Source: Prevotellaceae bacterium (GTDB lineage Bacteria; Bacteroidota; Bacteroidia; Bacteroidales; Bacteroidaceae). Taken from it: a stretch of DNA of 27,491 nt. Each line of letters starts with the position of its first letter. The stretch's first letter is position 1. Under the pieces are notes generated by a model. It searched no databases and was not told where the DNA came from. It was given only the letters and a program-made list of their open reading frames with translations. The position numbers and the translations under genes are program-made. Location of the stretch: NCBI GenBank assembly GCA_003150315.1, contig QAML01000039.1, positions 1 to 27,491 on the forward strand. Direction: 5' to 3'. Positions 1 through 21,066 of this stretch are shown in pieces.

Positions 1-128
1 AAGGCACTTATTTTAAAATATGTGCCTTGTATTTTTTGCGATAAGCCATGTGTTTTTTCGGCTGTCGGAAAACGCAGTCTTTCCAACCCGTGTTTCTGCG
101 CCTTTCGGGCATGTGTTTTTGCGCATAC
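1..128. repeat. Palindrome-centred 21-bp modular repeat, copy A (cut by window edge)
   Basis: Bases 1-28 form a near-perfect palindrome (one T/T mismatch, 8 against 21) centred between 14 and 15. To its right, modules beginning GCCTTGTATTTTTT (24) and GCCATGTGTTTTTT (45) follow at exactly 21 bp. Two more lie in the same register at 87 (weaker) and 108 (GGCATGTGTTTTT, 15 of 21 bases matching the module at 45). The register at 66 is barely recognisable. The left arm is missing because the window starts there. The same element occurs near 4796-4918 and at 11510-11611. The remaining gene-free stretch to 350 holds only a promoter. Confidence 0.8.
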
Positions 129-4795: not shown

Positions 4796-4918
4796 TTACG
4801 GGAAACACGACAAGCCTTTTTCGAAAAAACATAAGGCAAACAATAAAAAATACAAGCCATGTATTTCAAAATAAAAGGCACTTATTTTAAAATATATGGC
4901 TTGTATTTTTTGTGTTCT
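4796..4918. repeat. Palindrome-centred 21-bp modular repeat, copy B
   Basis: Four leftward-facing modules end at 4816, 4837, 4858 and 4879, each exactly 21 bp from the next. On the minus strand they read GGCTTGTCGTGTTT, GCCTTATGTTTTTT, GGCTTGTATTTTTT and GCCTTTTATTTT. One rightward module (GGCTTGTATTTTTT) starts at 4898. The outer arms 4845-4860 and 4896-4911 are a perfect 16-bp inverted repeat, extendable to about 22 bp with a wobble pair. Against copy C, the stem base GGCAC/GTGCC is replaced by GCCAT/ATGGC on both sides, a compensated change. Weaker modules may continue left to about 4740. Confidence 0.8.
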
Positions 4919-5197
4919 CAAGGATTTGATAAACAGCAACTTACACAAACTCGCAGAAACGCCGTTATCTCACTGTTTTTCAGCATGTTGCGGCAAAAAT
5001 TCCTTAATTGCGCTTTCTGACAGCCTTTTTTGCGCAAAATGAATACACACTGCCGTTTATGCGCATATTTTCCGAAAATATTTCTTTCTGCTTCCCGAAC
5101 GCCCGAAACACCTGCCGCCGCAGCCGACACAGGCATACCGCAAGGAGATATGCCGTTTTTTTGCAGCAATCTCCCAAAAATTCCACGGCAGAATGCC

Positions 5198-11509: not shown

Positions 11510-11611
11510 AAAAGGCGAAAAATACAAGGCACTTATTTCAAAACATAAGGCACATATTTTAAAATATGTGCCTTGTATTTTTTGCGATAAGCCTTATGTT
11601 TTTTTACGCCT
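11510..11611. repeat. Palindrome-centred 21-bp modular repeat, copy C
   Basis: The centre 11547-11574 is a perfect 28-bp palindrome. Two modules face left (ending at 11530 and 11551) and two face right (starting at 11570, GCCTTGTATTTTTT, and 11591, GCCTTATGTTTTTTT). They are 21 bp apart on each side and exactly symmetrical about 11560.5. Outer arms 11518-11532 and 11568-11582 form a perfect 15-bp inverted repeat, so the RNA could fold in alternative ways. It lies between two convergent genes, with T-runs leaving the palindrome on both strands. This fits a bidirectional terminator, although that would not explain the 21-bp phasing. Confidence 0.85.
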
Positions 11612-12249: not shown

Positions 12250-13191
12250 ATGCTCAAAAAGCTGCTCATATCATTCGTACTGACATTTGCGACGTGCATC
12301 GCCGTAAGGGGACAGTATGACCCCGAATACACCCATTTTTGGATGATGGAGACTTCGTTTAACCCGGCAGCCGCCGGAAACGAAGACGCACTCAACATAA
12401 CCGGCGCGTACTCCATGCAGATGACCGGTTTTCGCAATGCACCCAAAACAATGTTTGCCTCTGCCGACATGCCGTTCATTGTGTTGAAAAAACGCAACGG
12501 TGTGGGACTTCTGTTTCAGAACGACGCACTCGGACTTTTCTCACACAAGAAATTTTCGGCGCAATATGCCTTTCACATAGAAAAGTTTTTTGGCGGACGA
12601 TTAAGCATAGGAGCACAAGCCGACCTGCTTGCCGAAGAATTCGACGGCACCAAAGCCGACGTGGAAACGTCTAACGACCCGGCAATTCCCACAACCAAAG
12701 TAACAGGTTCGAAGGTGGACATGAGCGCGGGGCTTTTCTATCGCCGCAAAAGCTGGTATGTGGGAGCCTCAATGGCTCACATACTTTCGCCTACGGTAAT
12801 GCTGGGCGAAACCAACGAGCTGAAAATAGACCCCGTCTATTATTTGACCGGCGGATACAATATAAAACTAAGAAATCCGTTAATTACAATACATCCCGCA
12901 GTGCTCTGCATGTACGACGGAAGCGACTTCCGAGCCAACATAAGCGGACGTGTGGAGCTGCACGACGATAACAAAAAACTCTTTGCGGGAGCCACTTACA
13001 GTCCGCAGCATTCTGCCGCAGCATTCGTGGGAGGACTTTTCCACGGCATCACAGTGAGCTACTCCTATGAGGCTTACACTTCCATGCCCGACCTTAAAAG
13101 CGGTGCGCACGAGATAGTGCTGCAATACCGTCTCAATATGAATTTGTATAAAAAAGGGCGCAACCGCCACAAAAGCGTGCGCTATCTGTAA
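12250..13191 (+). CDS. porP: PorP/SprF-family type IX secretion outer-membrane protein
   Basis: 313 residues with a signal peptide ending near VRGQ. The mature start YDPEYTHFWMMETSFNPAAAG is the signature of the PorP/SprF family. A predicted beta-barrel follows, ending with GAHEIVLQYRL, typical of the family. PorP-type proteins sit in the outer membrane and associate with the PorK-PorN ring. It opens the P-K-L-M-N operon, with porK 21 bp downstream. Length matches the family (about 300). Confidence 0.92.
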   Translation: MLKKLLISFVLTFATCIAVRGQYDPEYTHFWMMETSFNPAAAGNEDALNITGAYSMQMTGFRNAPKTMFASADMPFIVLKKRNGVGLLFQNDALGLFSHKKFSAQYAFHIEKFFGGRLSIGAQADLLAEEFDGTKADVETSNDPAIPTTKVTGSKVDMSAGLFYRRKSWYVGASMAHILSPTVMLGETNELKIDPVYYLTGGYNIKLRNPLITIHPAVLCMYDGSDFRANISGRVELHDDNKKLFAGATYSPQHSAAAFVGGLFHGITVSYSYEAYTSMPDLKSGAHEIVLQYRLNMNLYKKGRNRHKSVRYL

Positions 13192-13212
13192 ACATTAGAA
13201 ACAACAGCAAAC

Positions 13213-14658
13213 ATGAAACAAATAGCTTATGCCTTTACAGCTTTCATTCTGTGTCTGATGCTCGCCTCGTGCTTCAGCAGCAAGAAAATGATGAGCGACG
13301 GAGGCGAAGTAACAGGACAGCGCGGGGTTCGCTCGGAAGAACCCGCACCCTACGGAATGGTAAAAATACCCCGCGGATACCTGAAAGTGGGACTTGCCGA
13401 ACAAGACAGCCTTTGGGGAAACGTAATTCCGCAAAAAGACATTTCGGTTGACGGTTTCTGGATGGACCAGACCGAAGTAACAAACTCAATGTACAGACAA
13501 TTTGTATATTGGGTGCGCGACAGCATCATCCGCGAGCGTCTTGCCGATCCCAGCTACGGAGGCGACGAAACTTATAAGATAGAAGAGGACAAATATGGCG
13601 ACCCTGTTACTCCCCATCTCAATTGGAAGAAACCCATTCCCTGGCGTAAACCGTCGGAAGACGAAGAACGCGCCATAGAAAGCGTTTATACCTATCATCC
13701 TATCGATGGTTCCCGCATGCTCGACACAAAACAGTTGAACTATCGCTATGAAATTTTCGACTATGCCAAAGCAGCAATGCGAAAATACCGTCTTAATCCC
13801 GAAGAACGCTCACTCGATACCGACAATCCCGCAGACCTCAACGAAGTTGTCATGATTTCGAAAGACACAGCCTATGTGGACGACGACGGAAACATAGTAA
13901 GACAAACCATTACCCGTCCTCTTTCGAGTATGTACGACTTCCTTAATACATATATAGTAAATGTATATCCCGATACCACTTGCTGGGTGAACGACTTCCA
14001 AAACGCCAACAACGAAGTCTATCTGAAAACATATTTCTCCTCACCCTCCTACAACGACTACCCCGTTGTGGGCGTAACATGGGAACAAGCCAACGCTTTC
14101 TGTGCCTGGCGCACCGAATATCTGCTGAGAGGTCTCGGACCGGAAGCGAGAAACATACAACGATACCGCCTGCCGTCCGAAATAGAATGGGAATACGCCG
14201 CAAGAGGCAAGGAAGGCAATCCGTTCCCATGGAAAGACAGCGGCACGAAAAACGACAAGGGATGTTTCTTTGCCAACTTCAAACCCGACAGAGGAAACTA
14301 CACCGAAGACGGAAACCTCATAACATCGAAAGTGGGTATTTACGGAGCAAACTCGAACGGTCTGTTTGACATGGCAGGCAATGCCGCAGAATGGACAAAC
14401 ACCGAATATACCGAGGCGGGCGTAAGCAATATGAGCGACATCAATCCCGAGCTGAAATACAACGCAGCAAAAGAAGACCCTTACCGCTTGAAGAAAAAAG
14501 TTGTGAGAGGCGGCTCGTGGAAAGACCCGGAATCGCTGATACGTTCGGCTTGGAGAACATACGAATACCAAAATCAGCCGCGCTCTTACATAGGTTTTCG
14601 CTGCGTTCGCTCGCTTGCGGGAGCCGAAGCGGGAACTAATAAGGACAAAAAGAAATAA
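13213..14658 (+). CDS. porK: PorK/GldK type IX secretion ring lipoprotein
   Basis: 481 residues. A lipobox LASC (Cys20) marks it as a lipoprotein of the periplasmic face of the outer membrane. The rest is a formylglycine-generating-enzyme (SUMF1)-like fold: GFWMDQTEVTNSMYRQFV, YPVVGVTWEQANAFCAWR, YRLPSEIEWEYAARG, GLFDMAGNAAEW, and RGGSWKDPES with YIGFRCVRS at the end. In this family the fold is structural; with PorN it builds the large periplasmic ring of the secretion system. Size matches P. gingivalis PorK. porL begins 10 bp downstream. Confidence 0.94.
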   Translation: MKQIAYAFTAFILCLMLASCFSSKKMMSDGGEVTGQRGVRSEEPAPYGMVKIPRGYLKVGLAEQDSLWGNVIPQKDISVDGFWMDQTEVTNSMYRQFVYWVRDSIIRERLADPSYGGDETYKIEEDKYGDPVTPHLNWKKPIPWRKPSEDEERAIESVYTYHPIDGSRMLDTKQLNYRYEIFDYAKAAMRKYRLNPEERSLDTDNPADLNEVVMISKDTAYVDDDGNIVRQTITRPLSSMYDFLNTYIVNVYPDTTCWVNDFQNANNEVYLKTYFSSPSYNDYPVVGVTWEQANAFCAWRTEYLLRGLGPEARNIQRYRLPSEIEWEYAARGKEGNPFPWKDSGTKNDKGCFFANFKPDRGNYTEDGNLITSKVGIYGANSNGLFDMAGNAAEWTNTEYTEAGVSNMSDINPELKYNAAKEDPYRLKKKVVRGGSWKDPESLIRSAWRTYEYQNQPRSYIGFRCVRSLAGAEAGTNKDKKK

Positions 14659-14668
14659 ACAATAAATC

Positions 14669-15493
14669 ATGAAAGCAAATAGCTTCAACATAATCGTACG
14701 CCTGCAACGCTGGATGGACAGTGTGCCGGGACAAACCTTTCTGAACTACGCTTACTCCTGGGGCGCATCAATCGTAATCCTTGGCGCACTTTTTAAGCTC
14801 ACACACCTTTTCGGCGCAGACATAATGCTTTTCATCGGTATGGGCACCGAAGTGATCGTATTCTTCTTGTCTGCATTCGACCGTCCGTTCGATACCGAAG
14901 AAGAAACGTCCGAACTCGAAGAAAGTAAGGAAAGCAGCGAAGAAAACGAGGAAGAAGACACTGCCAAAGGCATAACCGGCGGAACGGGAGCCACAATAAT
15001 CCTCAGAGGAGGCACCGTGGGCGGAGCGCAAGCCTCGGACGGCGAAACACCTCTGACAACAGCTGCCGCAACAGGCAACATGCCGGGCACAAATGCCGGA
15101 GGTTTCGTAATGGCAGGCACTGCCGCAGTAATAACCGACGCAGGAAACGCAGCAAATCCCGAACTCGGCGACGTAACTCAGAACTACGTTGAAAAACTCA
15201 AGGAATTAACCGAAGTTCTTACCAAGGTGGAAGAACAAAGCAGGAAAATGACCACCGACAGTGAGGAAATGATTAATCTTAATCGCACTCTGACGGGCAT
15301 CAACACCGTTTACGAACTGCAATTAAAGAACATAAGCGCGCAGATTGGCACTATTGACCAGATTAACGAGCAAACCCGCAAAATGGCAAAGCAAATCGAA
15401 GAGCTTAACGGCGTTTACAGCCGCATGATAAAGGCTCTCACCGTAAACATGAAGAACGCCGCAGCGGCATCATCGGTTGGCGACGACGAATAA
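14669..15493 (+). CDS. porL: PorL/GldL type IX secretion motor protein
   Basis: 274 residues. Two membrane helices lie at about 28-49 (SWGASIVILGALFKLTHLFG) and 51-71 (IMLFIGMGTEVIVFFLSAF). Glu61 in the second probably corresponds to the membrane Glu of GldL used for proton-driven rotation. With PorM it forms the inner-membrane motor. Unusual for its size are a strongly acidic stretch (about 75-97, Glu/Ser/Asp) and a Gly/Ala/Thr-rich stretch (about 98-160) just after the membrane part. A coiled coil (about 165-255) follows. It lies between porK and porM. Confidence 0.92.
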   Translation: MKANSFNIIVRLQRWMDSVPGQTFLNYAYSWGASIVILGALFKLTHLFGADIMLFIGMGTEVIVFFLSAFDRPFDTEEETSELEESKESSEENEEEDTAKGITGGTGATIILRGGTVGGAQASDGETPLTTAAATGNMPGTNAGGFVMAGTAAVITDAGNAANPELGDVTQNYVEKLKELTEVLTKVEEQSRKMTTDSEEMINLNRTLTGINTVYELQLKNISAQIGTIDQINEQTRKMAKQIEELNGVYSRMIKALTVNMKNAAAASSVGDDE

Positions 15494-15544
15494 TCCCGCA
15501 TCTCACCCGACATTTGCCCCAAACAGCGAAACCAATACAACAAA

Positions 15545-17110
15545 ATGGGAATTAAAAGAAGACCGGTATCTCCAAGGCAGAAGATGATCAACCTCATGTA
15601 CATCGTTCTGCTGGCAATGCTTGCTCTGAACGTGTCGCCCGACGTTCTCAACGGTTTTACAATTGTTGAAGACAACATAAGACGCTCCACGGCAAGCACA
15701 GCATCGGACAACGCGGCAATGTACAGGAACTTTGACGAGCAAATGAAAGCCAATCCGGTAAAAGTAAGGGAATGGTTTGAAAAAGCACGCAGAGTTCGCG
15801 CCATGAGCGACTCACTTTACGACTACGCCGAAGAACTTAAACGCGCCATTGTGCTGCATTCCGACGGCGCAAAGGGAAATATTCACGACATTCTCAACAA
15901 AGACGACCTCGAAGGTTCGACATACGTGATGCTCAATCCCACAAGCGGACAGGGACGCAAGTTATATGACGCAATAAATGACTATCGCCGTAAAATAACT
16001 GCCATGATAACCGACAAGGACGAGATTGCCGTTGTGAGCAAAAACCTTGCAACAGTCGTGCCCCGCCGCGAAAACACGCTTGGAAAGAACTGGCAGCAAT
16101 ACATGTTTGAAAATACTCCCACGGCAGCCGCTGTGGCATTGCTCAGCAAGCTCCAAAACGATGTGAGATACGCAGAAGGAGTTGTGCTTCACAATCTTGT
16201 TTCAAACATAGACATGAAAGACATCCGCGTAAACGAACTTGATGCGTTTGTAATACCTAATTCCAACACCATAGTGCAAGGCGGAAAATTCAGTGCGAGG
16301 ATTATTATGGCGGCTGTGGACACAACGATGCGCCCATCTATATATGTAGGAGGTCGCAAAGTAGCTTCAAACGGAATATACGAGTTCACATGCGGAAGCA
16401 CAGGCGATTTCAACTTCTCCGGATATATAGAAATGCAAAACGGACAGGGAAACACCGTACGCCGCAACTTTACACAGAAATACACTGTGGTAGCTCCTTC
16501 CGCCACAGTCTCTGCCGATTTGATGAACGTCCTTTATGCCGGCTACAACAACCCAATGAGCGTTTCCGCTCCGGGAGTTCCGCTCAACAAGATCGGAGTT
16601 TCCATGACGGGCGGCACACTTCAGCCCAACGGCAACGGAAAATACATTGCCCGTCCCGCAGCTGTGGGAACCGATGCCGTGATTACCGTTACCGCAAACA
16701 TGGAAGGACGTAACGTGGAAATGGGAAAATTCACATTCCATGTGAGAAAACTCCCCGATCCTACGGCTTTCATAGCCTTTAACGACGAAAAAGGCAACGC
16801 AAATCAGTATAAAGGCGGACGACCTCTGTCAAAAGCCACACTCATGGGCACACACGGCATAGGCGCAGCCATAGACGACGGACTGCTAAACATTCCGTTC
16901 AGAGTGCTCGGTTTCGAAACCGTATTCTTTGACAACATGGGCAACGCAGTGCCCGAAATCTCCAAATCCTCGAGCTTTACCGAAAGACAGAGAAACATGT
17001 TCAGAATGCTCTCAAGGGGAAAACGCTTCTACATAACCCGTGTGAAAGCCGTGGGACCCGATGGAATAGAGCGCACATTGCCTCAGGCTCTCGAGGTTAT
17101 AGTAAACTAA
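15545..17110 (+). CDS. porM: PorM/GldM type IX secretion motor protein
   Basis: 521 residues, the usual length (GldM/PorM about 515). The N-terminal segment RRPVSPRQKMINLMYIVLLA followed by MLALNVSPDVLNGF is the single membrane anchor that inserts into the PorL pentamer. The rest is periplasmic, with a helical D1 followed by beta-sandwich domains D2-D4 (for example SATVSADLMNVLYAGYNNPM and GVSMTGGTLQPNGNGKYIARP). It transmits motor rotation to the PorK-PorN ring. It lies 51 bp after porL and 25 bp before porN. Confidence 0.95.
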   Translation: MGIKRRPVSPRQKMINLMYIVLLAMLALNVSPDVLNGFTIVEDNIRRSTASTASDNAAMYRNFDEQMKANPVKVREWFEKARRVRAMSDSLYDYAEELKRAIVLHSDGAKGNIHDILNKDDLEGSTYVMLNPTSGQGRKLYDAINDYRRKITAMITDKDEIAVVSKNLATVVPRRENTLGKNWQQYMFENTPTAAAVALLSKLQNDVRYAEGVVLHNLVSNIDMKDIRVNELDAFVIPNSNTIVQGGKFSARIIMAAVDTTMRPSIYVGGRKVASNGIYEFTCGSTGDFNFSGYIEMQNGQGNTVRRNFTQKYTVVAPSATVSADLMNVLYAGYNNPMSVSAPGVPLNKIGVSMTGGTLQPNGNGKYIARPAAVGTDAVITVTANMEGRNVEMGKFTFHVRKLPDPTAFIAFNDEKGNANQYKGGRPLSKATLMGTHGIGAAIDDGLLNIPFRVLGFETVFFDNMGNAVPEISKSSSFTERQRNMFRMLSRGKRFYITRVKAVGPDGIERTLPQALEVIVN

Positions 17111-17135
17111 CGAAAATACATCAACGATAGGAAAT

Positions 17136-18389
17136 ATGCGTAACTTAAAGACGAAATACCTGCTCCCTGTCATAACCGCCGTAATGGCTATGCTCACGAT
17201 CATACCGGCAGAGGCACAAAACAAATCGGGAGGCGAAAGCCAGCCGACCCTCTCAGTGCGCCGCCAACGCCAGTCGGCATCCACACCGCGCAAGACGCAA
17301 ACCAAGAAACAGGTTGAAGCAAAACCTGCAGCAAAGAAAACCGACACGGCAACAAAGGGCGCAATAACGCCAACCAAAAACGCGGCAAACGACACGGCAA
17401 AAAATGCAAATCCTTCACGTCCGCGTTTTGTGCCGCGACAGCAAAGAGCGGCTGCGGCAACTCCAAAAACTTCCGACGAACGCGCACAAATCGATTTTCC
17501 CACCGCACCCGACATGCCCAAAGACGTATCGTGGCGCAGGGACATCTATCGCACGCTCGACCTTACACAGGATGCAAACGCCACACTCTATTATCCGCTC
17601 GAACAGCAGGGAGACCAGATAAATCTTTTCACTTACATTCTGAAACTCATACTGCGCGGACAGGTCAAAGCCTATGACTATTCGCTCAACGGCAATGAAA
17701 ATTTCGATGCAAAGAATCAAGTTAAACCCAAGGACATTCTTGACCGCTACCATATATATTATGAAACAAAAGACGGCAGAATGCACATTAACGACAGCGA
17801 CATTCCCGCAGCCGAAGTCCTTGAATATTTCCTGAAAGAAAGCTCGTATTTCGACCAGCATACGGCAACCTATCACACAAAAGTAACAGCATTGTGCCCT
17901 GTTCTGAAAAGAGCCGACGATTTCGGCGGAGCCGATGCCAAATATCCCATGTTCTGGGTAAAATATGACGACATCGCGTCCTTCCTTACCAAATTGCCGC
18001 TAACAGGAAGCAACTACAACAACGCATCTACCATGAGCGCGGACGATTATTTCGCAATGAACCGTTATCAAGGCAAGATATACAAAACTAATAACCTTCA
18101 GGGCAAAGTACTTGCCAACTACTGCACCACCGATTCCGCTCTCACAAAAGAGCAAAAGAAAATCGAAAAGCAGCTGACCGATTTCGAGCAACACATATGG
18201 GGAAACGACTCCACCGATTCCACCAAAATCAAAAAAGACACAGTTGTTGCAAAGAAAGAAAAGCGCAGCCGTACACTCTCGAGCCGCCGCAGCGGAAACA
18301 CGTCAAGCGTGAAAGAAAAGAAAACCAAAGGTTCGAACACTTCATCTTCGGGAAGCGCACGCGTGTCAGTACGCCGCCAACGCCACTAA
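17136..18389 (+). CDS. porN: PorN/GldN type IX secretion ring protein
   Basis: 417 residues. The signal peptide ends near AEAQ (residue 28). The GldN domain starts at about residue 126 (DMPKDVSWRRDIYRTLDL) and includes NATLYYPLEQQGDQINLFTY and HIYYETKDGRMHINDSDIPA. PorN binds PorK to form the periplasmic ring. It is longer than typical PorN because of basic low-complexity regions at both ends: a Lys/Ala/Thr-rich stretch of about 90 residues after the signal peptide, and a Lys/Ser/Arg-rich tail of about 60. The motif SVRRQR occurs at both extremes (40-45 and 411-416), encoded by nearly identical bases. It is the last gene of the operon. Confidence 0.92.
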   Translation: MRNLKTKYLLPVITAVMAMLTIIPAEAQNKSGGESQPTLSVRRQRQSASTPRKTQTKKQVEAKPAAKKTDTATKGAITPTKNAANDTAKNANPSRPRFVPRQQRAAAATPKTSDERAQIDFPTAPDMPKDVSWRRDIYRTLDLTQDANATLYYPLEQQGDQINLFTYILKLILRGQVKAYDYSLNGNENFDAKNQVKPKDILDRYHIYYETKDGRMHINDSDIPAAEVLEYFLKESSYFDQHTATYHTKVTALCPVLKRADDFGGADAKYPMFWVKYDDIASFLTKLPLTGSNYNNASTMSADDYFAMNRYQGKIYKTNNLQGKVLANYCTTDSALTKEQKKIEKQLTDFEQHIWGNDSTDSTKIKKDTVVAKKEKRSRTLSSRRSGNTSSVKEKKTKGSNTSSSGSARVSVRRQRH

Positions 18390-20164: not shown

Positions 20165-20348
20165 ACAGTTTTCCAAACAACACCGCACGGCATACACCAT
20201 TTCCCAAATGGCTGCGTTTCTTCTTTTGAACATTACGCGGCGCATTTTCGGTTGTCTTTTACAAACTATTGGTTTTCTGCATTTTACGCGTTTTTGGGAG
20301 GGTTTTGTAAAAGATTGTCATTCAGAGGTTTGCAACGGTGTAAAAAAG

Positions 20349-20430
20349 GTCTGATGTAGTTTGAATTATATCAGACATAATTTTTTTTTACATAGGACGT
20401 AGTTTTTCTCATGTCCGACGTGATTTTCGT
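20349..20430. repeat. Degenerate short repeat modules with dyads
   Basis: Four copies of GAYRTRRTTT start at 20353, 20374, 20397 and 20417 (spacings 21, 23 and 20). They are interleaved with dyads GTCTGAT/ATCAGAC (20349-20355, 20370-20376) and GGAC/GTCC (20395-20398, 20413-20416). The first dyad is followed by a run of nine T, so it could also work as a terminator on the plus strand. Confidence 0.6.
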
Positions 20431-20466: not shown

Positions 20467-20661
20467 AAATCCACAGGCAAGAACACACCCATTAACATAT
20501 ACGTCTCGACCACCAACAACATTGCCCAAGACGGCACGGACACATGGGAGAAAATCGACACAACGTCCTCGCGTAAGGAAATCTTCACCGTTGAGAACGA
20601 GAAATGTCCAAAATGTCCAATCACTAAATTCACAGTACCTCCATCAAAACACAACACTTAA
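20467..20661 (+). pseudogene. Relic of the 3' end of a phosphodiesterase-like gene
   Basis: A 64-codon stretch ending in TAA (20659-20661) translates to a protein matching residues 339 onward of the phosphodiesterase at 351-1577. The alignment has no gaps and I count about 39 of 64 identical residues (STGK, IYVST, NNIA, GTDTW, SRKE, KCP, KFTV). No start codon is present. TAG lies in frame at 20461, and the match stops abruptly at about 20465, where short repeats begin. The catalytic part is absent, so it is a decayed or truncated duplicate. Confidence 0.85.
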
Positions 20662-21066
20662 TGTCCAAAGAAAAACACAATACTTTGACAATTAAACATA
20701 AGTTCATGAAATTTCAGTATCTAAAATGGCAAATATAGCCACAAACCTGTTATTGCAGAGTTAAATCGTTCCACACACACTTTGAAAAATAGGGCTAGTA
20801 AAGGATTGCGCTATAAGAGAATATGTAAATTATTTATATTCGAAAGTAAACAGTTACAGAATCAGGATATTAGCAAATATTAGGCTTATACGTCTTACCT
20901 TTTAGATAAAATAAGTATCTTTACACCCTATAACTGAAGATATATTACGAATTGAATAGATCATAGACAAGAATTCTTGCAGACCTGCACAAACATTATA
21001 AATAATAGTTTATTGATAATAAGATAATGTTTTCGTTCTTAATGGACAACTAATTAAATAATTAAC

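Follow-up and report, generated by a model that had tools for sequence, protein, structure and literature searches.

The question raised by this Prevotellaceae contig is what the short repeats between its genes are, and why they recur at so regular a distance. The window, meaning the whole stretch of 27,491 nucleotides that was analysed, carries three such repeats (copies A, B, and C), originally predicted to consist of 21-bp modules mirrored about a palindromic centre. Modules at 21 bp were verified at all three sites. A clear module consists of 7+7+7 bases, with an AT-rich arm (e.g. AAAATAT), a 7-bp core, and a second arm nearly reverse-complementary to the first. The core is asymmetric, reading AAGGCAC when forward and GTGCCTT when inverted, and modules follow one another head to tail without spacers. 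The predicted 21-bp repeat is real, but the unit is better read as the whole 7-7-7 dyad than as the proposed GCCTTGTATTTTTT plus spacer. The fixed 19-bp offset claimed for the two innermost modules follows from this build, since two mirrored 21-bp units produce it. The modules are listed here, with strand given where one applies.

1..14: copy A module 1, forward core AAGGCAC, left arm lost at the window edge
15..35: copy A module 2, AAAATAT GTGCCTT GTATTTT, inverted core
36..56: copy A module 3, TTGCGAT AAGCCAT GTGTTTT, degenerate arms
4805..4846: copy B outer pair, both modules degenerate, with cores AAGCCTT and AAGGCAA, arm pairs 1/7 and 2/7
4847..4867: copy B module, AAAATAC AAGCCAT GTATTTC, arm pairs 6/7
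4868..4888: copy B module with forward core, AAAATAA AAGGCAC TTATTTT, arm pairs 7/7
4889..4909: copy B module with inverted core, AAAATAT ATGGCTT GTATTTT, arm pairs 6/7
4926..4949, plus strand: weak tail-like TTGATAAACAGCAACTTACACAAA adjoining copy B, by eye, with several mismatches against the array tail of genomes G036 and G337
11519..11539: copy C module 1, forward, AAAATAC AAGGCAC TTATTTC, arm pairs 5/7
11540..11560: copy C module 2, forward, AAAACAT AAGGCAC ATATTTT, arm pairs 6/7
11561..11581: copy C module 3, inverted, AAAATAT GTGCCTT GTATTTT, arm pairs 6/7
11582..11602: copy C module 4, degenerate, TTGCGAT AAGCCTT ATGTTTT, arm pairs 2/7
20342..20383: copy D, two mirrored-core modules, AAAAAAG GTCTGAT GTAGTTT and GAATTAT ATCAGAC ATAATTT
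20385..20426: copy D, two further weak modules, cores ATAGGAC and GTCCGAC, arm pairs 3/7 and 3/7

Each array was scored for adjacent dyads against 1000 first-order Markov shuffles of its gap, the shuffles being allowed any period between 15 and 30 while the copies were scored at 21. Copy B, with three clear 21-mers (4847, 4868, 4889) and weaker ones at 4826 and 4805, scores 27, and copy C, in the order forward, forward, inverted, degenerate, scores 29; neither score was reached by any of the 1000 shuffles. The score of copy A was reached by all 1000, since a module truncated at the window edge is lost to the scan, and its support is instead a 95% match to copy C over 58 bases (1–58). At least four right-hand modules had been claimed for copy A. 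Two fit, the second with degenerate arms, while 57–98 does not, and by eye the register is regained only at 108–120. A fourth, weaker array (copy D, 20342–20426) has spacings of 21, 22, and 21 bp and other cores, and its score of 24 was reached by 44 of 1000 shuffles. One of its cores, ATAGGAC, also serves as a module core in G036. Beside copy D, 20480–20670 resembles by eye a decayed remnant, from the 3' part, of the gene for a sulfatase-like protein at 351–1577, the two sharing codon order around TDTW and SRKE.

A search of related genomes found a phased element family with a spacing of 21 bp that is not random, as the original prediction had anticipated. Among the genomes compared G036 is nearest to the window, judged by one DPP-IV-like protein that is 70% identical in G036 and 60% identical in an Alloprevotella-type genome. 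With the 87-base window array as query and two candidates scored per genome, at least 4 of 399 family genomes gave matches at E <= 0.001. When more candidates were scored, at E <= 0.01, G036 gave 19 matches, G279 five, G276 one, and G337 at least seven, from 40 scored candidates out of 158. When two neighbouring AT-armed 21-mer modules were sought with a pattern that ignores the core and allows up to 3 mismatches, there were 339 matches in G337, 62 in G036, and 27 in G176, where one three-module array can yield two matches; the reversed control gave 0 in all three. The pattern matched 16 of 399 genomes in all, the 13 beyond these three with one to three matches each. As the reversed pattern gave one match in each of about 15 of the 399 genomes, about as many as the pattern itself, single-match genomes mean little and only those with many matches count as array-bearing.

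Core sequences differ from genome to genome, with TAGTAAC in G337, CTCCGAG in G176, AAGCACT in G005, and mainly ATTTGAG, ATAGGAC, and AAGGCAC in G036. Chaining by core word, with steps restricted to 20–22 and 41–43 bp, assembled 36 arrays in G337, 21 in G005, and 81 in G036. Steps of 21 bp account for 66 of the 68 in G337 chains, and 30 of its 36 arrays run forward-forward-inverted. The commonest order in 67 tail-anchored G036 copies is ATAGGAC, ATTTGAG, inverted ATTTGAG (30/67), and a second order has ATTTGAG twice followed by its inverted form (16/67). The architecture is that of near-palindromic modules centred 21–24 bp apart, often two one way and one the other, and a complete array therefore forms a long inverted repeat as well.

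Other repeats were seen in the same material. G036 has a second kind of intergenic array of ~22 bp per unit, GATTGCATGACAGTTGCGATGC-like (L160 at 7241, L173 at 16257, L172 at 2687), and G337 has a second family with core GTGCCGA / GTCGGAC alongside the abundant TAGTAAC family (L279, L098, L110). A palindromic element starting AAGTGTAGTCCCCG occurs twice in the 22-kb locus L001 (16590–16670 and 21880–21980); by eye, it contains a mirrored two-module array and its ends resemble terminal inverted repeats.

Spacing was also measured with a sequence-blind detector requiring palindromic arms in both modules and cores alike or inverted. Over centre distances of 15 to 32 bp, 229 kb of G337 held 21 matches spaced at 21 bp, and no other distance collected more than 2. 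In 400 kb of G005 the count at 21 bp was 24, with no more than 4 at any of the rest; in 770 kb of G036, 21 and 22 bp drew 15 and 16 matches and every remaining distance 1 at the most. Matches at 21 bp inside called genes numbered 0 in G337, 6 in G005, and 4 in G036. The densities in G036 and G337 are not unbiased, as part of these stretches had been picked for holding matches. An unbiased survey covered 481 intergenic gaps of 80–1200 bp from 78 loci fetched for a protein, including some from closely related species, and scored palindromic arms plus neighbour similarity with a cut-off of at least 23. Adjacent dyads 21–24 bp apart, some of them simple-sequence repeats, were found in 65 of the 481 gaps and in 45 of the 78 loci; five shuffles gave 9, 5, 5, 8, and 5 passing gaps. 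By period, 3 gaps passed at 20 bp, 29 at 21, 21 at 22, 19 at 23, 6 at 24, and 10 at 25, with 16 at 14 bp, 1–8 at each period from 15 to 19, and 1–6 at each from 26 to 35. By comparison, 3 of 113 gaps passed in 300 kb of E. coli K-12 (0–1 in shuffles), with no period peak. Direct repeats without dyads rise at 21 and 22 bp too (32 gaps each, and 42 at 14 bp), which indicates that the two-turn unit is broader than its palindromic form. Arrays are more frequent in long gaps, at 27/107 of those of 400–1200 bp versus 7/163 of those of 80–150 bp.

Orthologous gaps show how the arrays differ between relatives. The gap between what we take, from their protein sequences, to be an HU gene and a convergent DedA-like neighbour carries arrays in five of seven orthologous cases, and these are of four unlike kinds with periods of 21, 22, 23, and 23 bp: 21-bp arrays in L020 and L055, a 22-bp array in L044, and two unlike 23-bp arrays in L041 and L037. 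In L009 and L026 the gap is 60–65 bp long and holds a terminator-like hairpin and no array. By eye, all five array-bearing gaps keep such a hairpin beside the HU stop with the array further on, the T-run being clear in four species and weak in L041. The array is not the sole terminator-like structure at this gap. It sits in DNA missing from L009 and L026, a difference that is not polarised as gain or loss, and this extra DNA, at ~220–450 bp with imprecise breakpoints, exceeds the array. Neither a target-site duplication nor a precise empty site was seen, which weighs somewhat against a mobile element. Another gap, common to L048, L051, and L022, carries related 23–24 bp arrays.

Copy B lies upstream of a serine acetyltransferase gene, and G036 and G001 also have arrays there with cores of their own, the gaps being matched by the serine acetyltransferase side alone; G337 has no array at this position. 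Of 26 gaps in front of serine acetyltransferase genes, 11 are significant at p<=0.02, in a set where L001 and L251 are the same genome and where simple repeats or plain hairpins make up several of those 11. Such recurrence could mean a function at that place. In G036 the gene order behind the MatE gene differs from that at the copy C locus, with no array directly behind it, and none lies in front of the PorP gene. The window itself holds a PorP/SprF gene (Pfam PF11751) and a GldK-like FGE-sulfatase gene (PF03781) within 12250–18389. The three genes that follow the latter are presumably GldL, GldM, and GldN of a type IX secretion core operon, judging from gene order and appearance.

The arrays are mainly intergenic and occur in every type of gap. 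The survey found them in 40/271 co-directional, 14/92 convergent, and 11/118 divergent gaps, and the 138 chains of G036, G005, and G337 comprise 40 in co-directional, 29 in convergent, and 17 in divergent gaps, 13 inside called genes, and 39 at the ends of contigs. Array tails in co-directional gaps face with the genes in 6 cases and against them in 8 in G036, and 10 and 4 in G337, a lean. Convergent gaps hold 19/45 placed arrays in G036 and 9/27 in G337, versus 23% and 16% of intergenic bases, respectively; G005 shows no excess (1/14). Arrays lie at a median of 382 bp from the upstream stop in G036 and 120 bp in G337.

Sequence shared beyond the modules bears on how the arrays are copied. In G036 the array is part of a longer dispersed repeat, with a doubling at 232–233 bp in at least six contigs. 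An alignment of 60 copies carries 1.2–1.3 bits per column over ~120 columns of array and tail, falling to 0.35–0.66 bits either side, and no element end could be fixed. All 24 aligned copies in G337 share a left flank and a right tail, while by eye the G005 arrays have no shared flanks. The tail motif CTGATTWTCANNTANTTACAAAGG accompanies the arrays of both G036 and G337, sometimes adjoins arrays with other cores, and is close to the IHF consensus. It was found in 25 of 399 genomes, compared with 3 for the reversed control. A significant repeat or hairpin lies upstream at 12 of 30 tail loci, three of the 12 being in G036 or G337 themselves and several being plain hairpins. With up to 4 mismatches allowed, the tail occurs in 0/65 array gaps and 0/416 other gaps of the survey and is therefore no general part of the arrays, marking instead a sub-lineage. 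IHF-like sites occur in 2/65 array gaps versus 0.75 in matched gaps, which is no clear enrichment. IHF as a general partner of the arrays is unproven.

Candidate mobility partners were sought in the draft genomes. A Y1 transposase family is present in three of six (G036, G005, G276). By eye, the G036 locus holds an IS605-like pair, and neither this locus nor that of G005, two of the three, has an array; G337, the array-richest draft, has no Y1 match. Mobilisation as in RAYT/REP systems was rejected on these grounds. Locus L231 of G005, also by eye, has a single RAYT-like Y1 transposase with GC-rich REP-like flanks unlike the 21-bp arrays of that genome. No transposase or autonomous partner was found in the draft genomes examined, which counts against a mobile element. 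Viral contigs gave no exact match to the array pattern and plasmids no blastn match, and phage or plasmid origin was set aside. A tyrosine-recombinase core site, which would share the 7-7-7 layout, was entertained by analogy and dropped.

Two other suggestions of the original prediction were curved DNA and a role in termination. For the window copies a wedge model gives z of 0.18, -0.38, and -0.60 versus shuffled sequence, no excess of curvature, and curved DNA was rejected for them. Elsewhere, G337 arrays average -0.56, and those of G036 (+1.67) and G005 (+2.88) do score as curved. Runs of two forward modules and one inverted would form AT-rich hairpins preceded by A-runs and followed by T-runs, as expected of bidirectional terminators, and copy C lies between convergent genes and was flagged on both strands by a terminator scan, which overall gave 15 versus 17.2 in shuffles. 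The excess in convergent gaps of G036 and G337, not seen in G005, points the same way. As the main role, however, termination is disfavoured by the separate hairpin kept in five of five array-bearing HU gaps and by the arrays in divergent gaps, as well as by the distance from the upstream stop in G036, though not in G337. Arm mismatches in co-directional gaps are about equally G-T (50) and A-C (45), and in G036 module pairs A-C exceed G-T; there is no sign of RNA-strand pairing, and the near-equality is what would be expected were DNA being read and not a single RNA strand. Rfam searches of seven sources including the window returned only tRNAs at the gathering score, and RNA structure was likewise set aside. 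We regard bidirectional terminators as an unlikely explanation, and simple ones are disfavoured by the HU gap.

There is about an even chance that the copies belong to a widespread class in the family, that of amplifying, non-coding intergenic repeats like BIMEs and BrickBuilt. Cores that are a genome's own yet occur at tens to hundreds of places mean that copies must spread or be homogenised. Amplifying miniature elements are argued for by the homogeneity of cores within genomes and their difference between them, by flanks shared in two of three genomes, by the near lack of orientation preference in G036, and by presence and absence at one gap. Such elements would be non-autonomous and BIME-, REP-, or MITE-like. 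The two-turn dyads are probably protein sites, as their spacing suggests a protein reading on one face; this may be a dimeric mobility enzyme or nucleoid protein. Template switching at hairpins could flip or perfect modules. Counting against amplification are the orientation lean in G337, the chains within genes, the flankless G005 arrays, and the rise of non-palindromic tandem repeats at 21–22 bp, which fits plain slippage.

The last of these points would be expected of neutral minisatellites, in which short palindromes within long gaps would be lengthened and made more perfect through replication slippage and template switching at hairpins; long gaps are indeed where arrays are commoner. Slippage at single places would not, however, produce the conserved flanks of G036 and G337, and identical cores at dozens to hundreds of places per genome also speak against it; we think it no likelier than bidirectional termination. 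A platform for a nucleoid or regulatory protein, selected in place with the core co-evolving with the protein in each genome, would account for the two-turn spacing centred on 21–23 bp, for orthologous gaps that share the architecture but not the cores, and for homogeneous cores within a genome. Against it, no cognate protein was identified, the HU gap of two relatives has no array, neither the window arrays nor those of G337 show added curvature, and IHF-like sites are not clearly enriched near arrays. This platform is doubtful, if slightly less so than termination or slippage. More improbable than any of these, by analogy with centromeric satellites, would be lineage-wide, genome-specific dyad arrays whose architecture, with mirrored two-turn palindromes at favoured intergenic positions, is conserved and whose sequence is replaced wholesale between species; they might be recognised by a fast co-evolving protein that binds DNA or organises the chromosome, and be re-seeded at the same gaps whenever the sequence turns over.

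Amplifying repeats have parallels in the same order. BrickBuilt, a MITE/minisatellite of Porphyromonas gingivalis, is described in excerpts of its report as 19 elements with up to 22.8 direct repeats and with terminal inverted repeats most similar to ISPg1 and ISPg9 (PMC4596501); it is also mentioned in PMC5771137. By that description the arrays resemble it in their repeats of about two turns (23 nt in BrickBuilt) joined head to tail without spacers, an intergenic location (always so for BrickBuilt), flanking leader and tail sequences, and a species-specific family (PMC4596501). A spacerless tandem unit of ~21–24 bp is found here too, intergenic except for the 13 of 138 chains in called genes. 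Unlike BrickBuilt, the arrays mostly have 2–4 dyad modules of mixed orientation, reach hundreds of copies, and are without identified transposon ends. PINSR, a 188-bp repeat of the Prevotella intermedia/nigrescens group with 177 and 184 copies, about three quarters of its regions being common to two strains, is likewise a high-copy, non-coding intergenic repeat of one lineage without terminal inverted repeats; the available portion of its description mentions no 21-bp modular build (PMC4755523). REP/BIME sequences, outlined in part of PMC3733652 as small extragenic palindromes tagged GTAG or CGTC, are similarly single or grouped, mixed in orientation, numerous per genome, and different between species. 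The strict 21-bp centre spacing and the two Y1 loci with no array set the present arrays apart from them. Among the open-access papers listed by literature searches, with subscription journals mostly outside them, none was on 21-bp dyad arrays across the family, a weak sign of novelty.

Intergenic repeats of bacteria have usually been described species by species; here a single build of two-turn-spaced dyads recurs in 45 of 78 family loci, with unrelated letters and with an array identity that differs between relatives at the same gap. This build makes it testable what recognises such an array and whether the array moves. Knowing this would link BrickBuilt and similar minisatellites, perhaps PINSR among them, and would show whether bacteria possess fast-evolving, functional satellite-like DNA.
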